The notes under the pieces were generated by a model. It was not told where the DNA came from. It did no database searches and saw only the letters and a list, made by a program, of their open reading frames with translations. This document shows, in pieces, positions 48,095 through 49,910 of a stretch of 64,000 nt of DNA. Every line of letters starts with the position of its first letter. Position 1 is the stretch's first letter. This DNA comes from Maritalea mediterranea (GTDB lineage: Bacteria; Pseudomonadota; Alphaproteobacteria; Rhizobiales; Devosiaceae). The position numbers and the translations under genes are program-made. The stretch is from the NCBI RefSeq assembly GCF_021568695.1, contig NZ_JAKGTI010000001.1:992001-1056000 (forward strand), written 5' to 3'.

Positions 48095-49021
48095 ATGAGC
48101 GAACAAAATGTGCCGGCCCATCTGGACCCCAAAAAATCATTTCAGGGCCTGATTTTGACATTGCAAAATTTCTGGGCCGCCCAGGGCTGTGTGATTTTGC
48201 AACCCTATGACATGGAAATGGGCGCGGGCACCTTCCATCCGGCCACAACTCTGCGTTCGCTGGGGCCAAAACCGTGGCGCGCCGCCTATGTGCAGCCCTG
48301 CCGTCGTCCAACAGATGGCCGCTATGGGGAAAACCCCAACCGCTTGCAACATTATTATCAGTTTCAGGTTTTGCTGAAACCCAGCCCGGAAAAACTGCAA
48401 GAGCTTTATCTGCAATCGCTCTATGCCATTGGCATTGATCCGAAAATGCACGATCTGCGATTTGTAGAGGATGACTGGGAAAGCCCAACCCTTGGCGCTT
48501 GGGGCCTGGGCTGGGAATGCTGGTGCGATGGCATGGAAGTGAGCCAATTCACCTATTTCCAACAGGTGGCCGGTTTTGAATGCTCACCGGTATCTGGTGA
48601 GTTGACCTATGGTCTGGAACGGATCGCCTGCTATCTGCAGGATGTGGACAGCATCATGGAGCTGAACTTTAATGGTCGCGAAGGCGACGAGAAGGTCACC
48701 TATGCGGATGTATTTCTGCAAGCAGAGCAAGAGTTTTCGCGCTATAATTTTGAGCAGGCCAACACGGAAATGTTGTTCCAACACTTTAAGGATGCGGAAG
48801 CCGAATGCCGTGCCATTCTAGAAGCGGGTGATAACGGCAATCATCACAAAATGGCGATGCCAGCCTATGAGCAATGCATCAAAGCCTCACACATCTTCAA
48901 TTTGTTGGATGCCCGTGGCGTAATTTCGGTGACTGAGCGGCAAAGCTATATTTTGCGGGTGCGCGAACTGGCCAAAGCCTGCGGCGGTGCCTGGCTGAAT
49001 ACGGAAGCGGGTGGCGCATAA
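48095..49021 (+). CDS. glyQ: Glycine-tRNA ligase alpha subunit
   Basis: The 308-residue catalytic alpha subunit of the tetrameric bacterial glycyl-tRNA synthetase. Class II motifs and the family segments [35 protein letters not shown] and [30 protein letters not shown]-type stretches (here [18 protein letters not shown]) are clear. The beta subunit glyS is 2.96 kb downstream rather than directly after it, with the ArfA-like gene, lemA and a DUF2207 gene in between. It is complete, and the GGTCAAG region upstream is a weak ribosome-binding site. Confidence 0.97.
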
Positions 49022-49050
49022 GGCTTGAACGGTTGGGTGGCTCGCCCTAT

Positions 49051-49080
49051 ATCAAGGCGGCAAACCAAAGGAGCCTTGAT
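49051..49080 (+). promoter_or_regulatory. Hairpin presenting the ribosome-binding site of the ArfA-like gene
   Basis: ATCAAGGC (49051-49058) and GCCTTGAT (49073-49080) are perfect inverted copies. The 14-base loop holds the ribosome-binding site AAAGGA, and the ATG follows directly at 49081. The hairpin may fix the site in an open loop, bring it close to the start, or bind a protein. Confidence 0.6.
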
Positions 49081-49293
49081 ATGCAGAAAAAGCACAAAAA
49101 GGCCCCGAACAGGCCCCCCAATATGGCTGCGAGAGCCTTGGGCGAGAAGCAATTCGGTGCCAAAGTGATTGAGCAAAAGCAAAAGTATTCTCGTAAATCG
49201 AAATTCAAAAAAGGGCGATTTGATGTTGATCAGTCGCCCTTTTATTTTGCTCATATGGACGCATCGGGCTTTTCGTGTAATGTTTGCGCTTAG
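49081..49293 (+). CDS. ArfA-like ribosome-rescue factor candidate with an in-frame terminator
   Basis: This is a 70-codon gene with AAAGGAG seven bases before the ATG. Its product reads NMAARALGEKQF (14-25), then Val29 and Lys pairs, then KYSRKSKFKKG (35-45). This matches the ArfA core, which has an A..AL..LF...V...KGKGSY.RK.KH pattern; ArfA lets stalled ribosomes at nonstop messages be released with RF2. Residues 46-70 are hydrophobic and Cys-containing, like the tail of full-length E. coli ArfA (72 residues), which acts as a degron. A hairpin with the shape of a rho-independent terminator sits in frame at 49209-49243. It would cut the message near codon 55, where natural active ArfA ends. 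Homology is inferred by eye, not by a search. Confidence 0.68.
   Translation: MQKKHKKAPNRPPNMAARALGEKQFGAKVIEQKQKYSRKSKFKKGRFDVDQSPFYFAHMDASGFSCNVCA
49209..49247 (+). terminator. Terminator-like hairpin inside the ArfA-like reading frame
   Basis: AAAAGGGCGA (49209-49218) pairs perfectly with TCGCCCTTTT (49234-49243), with an inner TGAT/ATCA pairing, followed by ATTTT. It overlaps codons 43-56 of the gene. A transcript ending here has no stop codon, as happens naturally in E. coli arfA. Processing by RNase III would have the same effect. Confidence 0.82.
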
Positions 49294-49349
49294 ATGTTGA
49301 AAGACATAAAAAAATTGGCTTGAGGCAAGCGGTAAGGCGGGAGACAAGA

Positions 49350-49910
49350 ATGGACTTTTTACAGATCTTTTTGGCGGTGAGTGGAGTCATCGTCTTTTTT
49401 GGTATTCTCACCTACAACAAGCTGGTGAAACTGCGCCAATTGGTGCGTGAAGGCTGGTCTGGCATTGATGTCCAGTTGAAACGCCGCGCAGATTTGATAC
49501 CGAACCTTCTTGAAACTGTAAAAGGCTATGTCACCCACGAGCGTGAAACCTTGCAGGCCGTGACCGAAGCGCGCGCAGCGGTGCAAAGCGCAGGCGATGC
49601 TTCACCCCAAGAACGCGGCAAGCTTGAAAGCATGTTGTCTGGGGCATTGGGGCGTTTGTTTGCGGTGGCAGAAGACTACCCTGATCTGAAGGCTGATAGC
49701 TCCTTCATTGAATTTCAAGAAGCGCTGCAGCAGGTGGAAGATGAGATCCAACTTTCGCGCCGCTATTATAACGGCACGGTGCGCAATTTAAACGTCACAG
49801 TGGAAAGCTTCCCTTCCAACATTGTCGCCAACATGTTTAATTTTACACAAGAAGAATACTTCGAACTCGAAAATGAATTGGATCGCGCTGTTCCAGATGT
49901 GTCCTTCTAA
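49350..49910 (+). CDS. LemA family protein
   Basis: From the ATG at 49350 (GGCGGGAGA just upstream) the protein has 186 residues. It begins with a membrane helix (DFLQIFLAVSGVIVFFGILTY) and has the LemA core: DVQLKRRADLIPNLLETVKGY, then a helical bundle ending SFPSNIVANMFNF. LemA proteins are coiled-coil membrane proteins with unclear function. It overlaps the DUF2207 gene by 14 bases, and this pair is common in bacteria. The longer frame from 49284 runs from the end of the ArfA-like gene and adds nothing family-like. Confidence 0.92.
   Translation: MDFLQIFLAVSGVIVFFGILTYNKLVKLRQLVREGWSGIDVQLKRRADLIPNLLETVKGYVTHERETLQAVTEARAAVQSAGDASPQERGKLESMLSGALGRLFAVAEDYPDLKADSSFIEFQEALQQVEDEIQLSRRYYNGTVRNLNVTVESFPSNIVANMFNFTQEEYFELENELDRAVPDVSF

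Follow-up and report, generated by a model that had tools for sequence, protein, structure and literature searches.

Locus and gene neighborhood

The window analyzed here is a stretch of 64,000 nucleotides from Maritalea mediterranea, in which a short arfA-like open reading frame (ORF) lies on the plus strand between glyQ (48095-49021) and lemA (ATG at 49350), the two flanking genes being given their Pfam names. Translation confirmed the ORF, its 70 codons and its place between these genes, as proposed in an earlier sequence-only reading of the same DNA. The features of the locus are collected in Table 1. Relatives of this gene in the Devosiaceae are divided below into 15 hairpin-form loci, which carry a strong stem-loop inside the ORF, and 13 hairpin-free loci, in which no strong stem was detected.

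Table 1 Features of the arfA-like locus in the window
Feature	Position	Strand	Basis
Likely own promoter: TTGAAC (49025-49030), 16 nt, CTATAT (49047-49052)	49025..49052	+	CTAT[ACT]T element in relatives; inferred
Shine-Dalgarno AGGAG	49069..49073	+	Sequence; 7 nt before the ATG
arfA-like ORF, 70 codons (70 aa) from ATG at 49081, then TAG at 49291-49293	49081..49293	+	Translation; homologues in 33/136 Devosiaceae genomes
Protein core, codons 1-42 (N14, A17, L20, F25, Y36, R38, K39); ArfA-like without KGKGS	49081..49206	+	Alignments A1 and A6, PDB profile searches, hhalign with column-shuffle control, codon comparison
Terminator-like hairpin, in frame; 12-bp continuous stem, 15 bp including inner pairs	49209..49243	+	Folds, shuffles, conserved position and pairing in relatives, scan without ORF limits
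T-rich 3' side (TTTTATTTTG); expected transcript end	49240..49249	+	Sequence
Codons 57-70 (read-through tail) with the stop; expected to be absent from the active product	49249..49293	+	Tail length and sequence vary between species; no consistent protein constraint

Among the 15 hairpin-form loci, 11 carry the element CTAT[ACT]T at 31 to 39 nt ahead of the ATG, versus none of the 13 hairpin-free Devosiaceae loci tested, a distribution which suggests that the hairpin-form genes may have a promoter of their own. Because a generic sigma-70 scan gave no match for the proposed promoter of the Maritalea ORF, its assignment is inferential. A glyQ motif occurred within 300 nt upstream in 10 of the 15 hairpin-form loci (one more, L076, was recognized by eye) and in none of the 13 hairpin-free loci. 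On the other side, a lemA-like ORF (ORF labels assigned by eye) followed in 9/15 hairpin-form loci and, within 230 nt, in 9/13 hairpin-free loci; from this shared neighbor, the two forms look like relatives at one locus. Three further ArfA/DUF7230-like genes from the search of the order (L040, L043, and L044) end in an ordinary stop and stand directly before an ORF that we take to be moaA.

Protein family and relation to ArfA

NCBI places Maritalea in the Devosiaceae, Hyphomicrobiales, Alphaproteobacteria, and family f1 of the genome collection is called Devosiaceae here on that ground. When 61 genomes, among them the window's own, were searched with the protein, 14 yielded a homologue, and the gene was present in all six genomes of the window's genus, its own genome counted. 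The homologues share the pattern P-P-N-x-A-A-x-A-L-x4-F-x2-K-V-x-K...Y-[ST]-R-K-x-K-[HF], in which the Maritalea protein has K-F in place of the K-H pair. A profile built from 13 of the 14 loci, all Devosiaceae (A2; L014 was omitted as doubtful), matched 33 of 136 Devosiaceae genomes and, at the level of the order, 12 of 297 genomes, four of these 12 being Devosiaceae.

The Maritalea protein had no match to Pfam ArfA (PF03889) at E values up to 1 and none in NCBIfam, which gave two chance matches only among the 14 homologues; phmmer against the PDB returned weak, unrelated matches only. Its sole Pfam match was to DUF7230 (PF23876), at 17.2 bits and thus below the gathering cut-off of 27. Among the 14 homologues, 12 matched DUF7230 (best E of 2.2e-7) and five weakly matched Pfam ArfA (best E of 0.0041).

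Against all PDB sequences, six ArfA sequences headed the matches of A2 (E of 0.0025 to 0.0078), with the next match at 3. The same search with A6, a profile of 27 alphaproteobacterial rows, gave six ArfA sequences at 1.8e-7 to 4.9e-7 and the next match at 0.38; A6 is not independent of ArfA, because five of its rows had been found with Pfam ArfA. With hhalign, A2 scored 28.6 against beta/gamma-type ArfA (300 column shuffles reached at most 18.3) and 53.1 against the alphaproteobacterial Pfam-ArfA matches (shuffle maximum of 20.0). By both the shuffles and the PDB searches, the similarity to ArfA at the profile level goes beyond composition.

Aligned to Escherichia coli ArfA, the family keeps N14, L20, F25, and V29 in register. 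Position 25 is Phe or Tyr in 13 of the 14 rows of alignment A1 (His in L013), and the RF2-contact leucines of E. coli are not conserved. Phe25, Leu19, and Leu24 of ArfA are described as contacting RF2 (PMC5378476), and residues 27-30 are also listed as doing so (PMC8012679, PMC5378476). KGKGS is absent from all 13 rows of A2, with two residues (L011) or three missing before Y-x-R-K; according to PMC6299226, none of the KGKGS residues of ArfA is essential. The sequence-only reading had described an ArfA-like core followed by a hydrophobic tail: the likeness of the core was upheld by the profiles, with the qualification that it lacks KGKGS, but no family-wide conservation of the tail was seen. 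Our conclusion is that a single superfamily comprises ArfA, DUF7230, and the genes of the Devosiaceae, the link to ArfA being based on profiles of about 45-50 residues.

A hairpin inside the ORF

The terminator-like stem that had been noted inside the gene was recovered as a hairpin of 35 nt with the arms AAAAGGGCGATT / AGTCGCCCTTTT, pairing over 12 continuous bp (15 bp in the predicted fold when inner pairs are counted) and followed by ATTTTG. It falls within codons 43-55, and no in-frame stop precedes its end. Eight of 200 shuffles folded as well as the hairpin, six of 200 as well as the stretch from the Tyr codon, and one of 200 reached its stem score, so that as a single sequence it is only moderately beyond chance. 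A generic terminator scan of positions 48800-49500 reported three sites, none of them the in-ORF hairpin, perhaps owing to the loop limit of 8 in that scan. The weight of the hairpin case is carried by comparative evidence, not by the single sequence.

In 15 Devosiaceae genomes (6 Maritalea and 9 from other genera), a stem follows the core, its start lying 21-25 nt from the first Tyr-codon base of Y-[ST]-R-[KR]. With the stems aligned by their first G or C pair, all 105 pairs at the first seven stem positions of these loci are standard, a count that is favored by construction, as the best stem was chosen per locus. Two to five pair types were seen per position, both arms varying at pairs 2-7, and at positions 4-9 arms swapped between groups paired at 45% versus 88% for a locus's own arms. 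(A MAFFT alignment of the hairpins, A5, was set aside as it mixed stems of different register.) By minimum free energy, 14 of the 15 loci ranked at 0-7 of 200 shuffles and L070 at 36 of 200, and all 15 stems have five to nine T at the 3' side. The stop codon lies beyond the hairpin at a distance of 11-228 nt, a spacing that looks unconstrained.

A scan without ORF limits covered 66 distinct loci and stems within 120 nt of the Tyr codon, with a stem-score threshold of 22 that we set, some Tyr positions placed by hand, and L041, at a contig end, left out. Strong stems were found in 32 of the 66 loci, and 31 of these 32 were inside the ORF, the weak ones among them being L130 (8 of 200 shuffles) and L093 (23 of 200, without a T-run). 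The 30 scanned Devosiaceae loci, out of 33 carriers, comprised the 15 hairpin-form loci, one with a stem past the stop (L089), 13 lacking a strong stem, and L093 with its weak in-frame stem. Of 36 loci outside the family, 15 have a strong stem in frame, borderline in L130; a T-run is present in eight of these stems (L019, L021, L111, L116, L119, L120, L125, and L127). The sequence-only reading had named conservation of the hairpin in relatives as a check, and this was observed in the 15 Devosiaceae loci and in the in-ORF position of the strong stems, with about half of the relatives lacking the hairpin. Nonstop control therefore does not extend to the whole group, as 34/66 loci have no strong in-ORF stem.

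These comparisons bear on a rival explanation in which the peptide has a different ribosome- or RNA-binding role and the hairpin is a mere glyQ-lemA terminator overlapping a small ORF by chance. The hairpin does sit between glyQ and lemA in the window and is, taken alone, only moderately beyond its shuffles; hairpins are missing from about half of the relatives, and no single-sequence match to ArfA was obtained. Against it stand the strong in-frame stems at non-Devosiaceae loci, the almost exclusive placement of strong stems within ORFs, a stem start that keeps its place relative to the Tyr codon among the Devosiaceae, and profiles that rank ArfA first in the whole PDB. We regard this explanation as unlikely.

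The presence or absence of T-runs is relevant to how a nonstop mRNA would arise. Six in-frame stems outside the Devosiaceae (L046, L106, L109, L110, L117, and L123), close after Y-x-R-[KR], have no T-run and are candidates for sites of RNase III cutting instead of termination. Both routes exist in E. coli (PMC8012679, PMC3989581), and RNase III cleavage could be the main source of nonstop mRNA in Maritalea; yet the T-rich 3' sides of all 15 Devosiaceae stems resemble those of intrinsic terminators, and we give cleavage as the main route only a small chance.

Selection on core, hairpin, and tail

Codon comparisons separated the core from what follows it. Over codons 13-42, third positions accounted for 16/22, 14/20, 15/22, 21/30, and 10/16 of the changes in five pairs and for 18/33 and 16/29 in two pairs with L074, in which non-synonymous versus synonymous codons numbered 15 to 7 and 13 to 7. 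The hairpin codons of seven close pairs, summed, showed 4 synonymous versus 27 non-synonymous codon changes, and the tail showed no consistent protein constraint over seven pairs. By this pattern, selection keeps the core as a protein and the stretch after it more as RNA.

One pair, L036 and L071, departs from the rest in that its tail from codon 56 is identical at 15/15 residues with three synonymous changes, as would be expected if the full-length 70-aa protein were the functional form and the hairpin merely tuned its level. Against such a role for the full-length protein, the length and sequence of the tail and the distance to the stop vary widely among relatives, and the other pairs show no clear protein constraint on the tail; we therefore consider it highly improbable.

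Some tails have recognizable ends. In L035 and L069 (genus g1) the read-through tail ends in L-L-A-A, comparable to the R-L-A-A end of tmRNA tags seen in the genus, and L-L-A-A, or a sequence resembling S-L-L-A-A, also closes several beta/gamma-type ArfA ORFs (L031-L033). Such tails could contain a second degron of their own, and the likeness to an ssrA degron fits some loci only. Hairpin-free loci of genus g11, e.g., L082 and L089, have an acidic C-terminal end (D-P-V-L-E-A-E-K-Q-D-G-D-S-E in L082).

Ribosome rescue genes of the hosts

The Maritalea genome contains a tmRNA gene with the tag ANDNFAEARLAA, RF1 and RF2 above their NCBIfam cut-offs, and ArfB above its own. RF2 contains SPF, and a G-W-G stretch in it was taken as the Trp switch loop. 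All six Maritalea genomes have both the arfA-like gene and ArfB; because tmRNA and ArfB are both present, the arfA-like gene would be a second backup in this genus. Across 37 Devosiaceae genomes tmRNA was detected in 35, with no match in G027 and G034.

Within 35 sampled genomes, an ArfB-type match was absent from 6/13 hairpin carriers, 3/8 other carriers (hairpin-free or unclassified), and 1/14 non-carriers. In hand counts over genomes at least 90% complete, fewer than three RF-1-family matches were found in 11 of 28 carriers versus 9 of 91 non-carriers (Fisher p of about 0.001, ignoring kinship), where a missing third match may mean a missing RF gene and not a missing ArfB, as G024 has an ArfB-type match. 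The Devosiaceae pattern suggests that the arfA-like gene may compensate for the loss of ArfB. In genus g9, five genomes (G013, G022, G027, G032, and G725) have no ArfA-like match and at most two RF-1-family matches, so that ArfB can also be missing where there is no arfA-like gene. Genus g9 may depend on tmRNA alone, though G027 is also without a tmRNA match. The genomes of this genus are small (about 2 Mb).

Distribution in the Alphaproteobacteria

Profile A6 matched 34 of 385 sampled Alphaproteobacteria genomes, the window's own included, which corresponds to 24 of 277 genera, and to 23 of 315 when the better genomes are considered. Pfam ArfA alone matched 5 of 190 genomes of the class; DUF7230 matched 2 of 190 in the class and 1 of 249 in a phylum-wide sample.

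Published accounts place ArfA elsewhere. A 2024 survey of 15,259 genomes by nhmmer profiles reports arfA in 0 of 2,376 Alphaproteobacteria and ArfB in 2,022 of the same 2,376 (PMC11633108). ArfA is described as confined to some beta- and gammaproteobacteria in the BrfA paper (PMC6881298) and in two reviews (PMC8012679, PMC8874680), and to enterobacteria in an older review (PMC3985003). Our literature search, of partial coverage, found no paper reporting an alphaproteobacterial ArfA or DUF7230 protein. The expectation of the sequence-only reading that an ArfA-type backup would be new or little described in this class agrees with the survey and with the texts that restrict ArfA.

Proposed mode of action

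Taken together, we consider it likely that the Maritalea gene encodes a divergent ArfA-type rescue factor, made from nonstop mRNA by means of the in-frame hairpin and repressed by tmRNA. In favor of this reading are the profile-level homology to ArfA, the protein-level constraint on the core, the conserved hairpin inside the ORF, the tmRNA and RF2 genes of the host, and the more frequent absence of an ArfB-type match from sampled hairpin carriers than from non-carriers. The mRNA would end at, or be cut in, the hairpin before the stop, leaving a ribosome at the end of a nonstop message. With tmRNA working, the product of about 54 aa would be tagged and destroyed; with tmRNA overwhelmed, it would accumulate and rescue ribosomes. 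By analogy with ArfA, a ribosome halted on truncated mRNA would take up the basic stretch Y-S-R-K-x-K-[HF] in its vacant mRNA channel, and N-x-A-A-x-A-L-x4-F would be the region that brings in RF2 and opens it.

Several observations count against reading the gene as a divergent ArfA. At the protein level, these are the missing Pfam ArfA and NCBIfam matches, the absent KGKGS, the unconserved RF2-contact leucines, and K-F for K-H. At the level of genomes, they are the loci without a strong in-ORF stem, the retention of ArfB throughout Maritalea, and the five genus g9 genomes, which combine the lack of an ArfA-like match with at most two RF-1-family matches.

With somewhat less assurance, we lean toward a wider proposal, that ArfA extends beyond the beta- and gammaproteobacteria as a sporadic ArfA/DUF7230 superfamily in about 1 of 11 sampled Alphaproteobacteria from many families. 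Its members would work without KGKGS, would occur in two regulatory states, one nonstop-controlled by an in-frame hairpin and one constitutive with an ordinary stop, and could replace a lost ArfB. If this is true, the nucleotide-profile search of the survey missed a whole ArfA branch, the uncharacterized Pfam family DUF7230 probably gains a function, and a tmRNA-ArfA nonstop feedback that was repeatedly kept or dropped beside ArfB loss becomes open to study within single families.

Comparison with known rescue systems

ArfB resembles the proposed factor as a backup for rescue but has its own GGQ catalytic motif; GGQ does not occur in the 70-aa Maritalea translation, and the host arfB is a separate gene. 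We know of no in-gene terminator reported for arfT. Compared by description only, ArfT is likewise a small basic factor that recruits an RF (PMC6299226), with a distribution wider than first thought (PMC6514570). BrfA of Bacillus subtilis, an RF2-dependent rescue factor, has an intrinsic terminator inside the gene, comparable to the terminator-like hairpin of the Maritalea gene, but is described as evolutionarily distinct from ArfA (PMC6881298); no BrfA-named chain appeared in the PDB searches with A2 and A6 at E values up to 10.

Two DUF7230 members, L015 and L016, share with the Maritalea family the short Y-x-R-K form that lacks GKG. They differ in that the loci over the family threshold (L015, L016, and L095) have no strong stem, and the family carries no assigned function.

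The closest likeness is to ArfA itself (E. coli YhdL, PF03889), from which the Maritalea family differs in a deletion of two or three residues in the KGKGS region, in escaping detection by Pfam ArfA in the case of the Maritalea protein, in belonging to another bacterial class, and in having hairpin-free homologues within the Devosiaceae. Nonstop mRNA is the source of ArfA in E. coli, through a stem-loop that serves both for termination and as an RNase III site, and the full-length protein is unstable (PMC8012679, PMC3989581). The Maritalea gene resembles it in encoding a small, basic protein with the core layout N...L-x4-F-x3-V-x-K...Y-x-R-K-x-K, in carrying a stem-loop in the coding region before the stop, and in residing in a host with tmRNA and RF2 genes.
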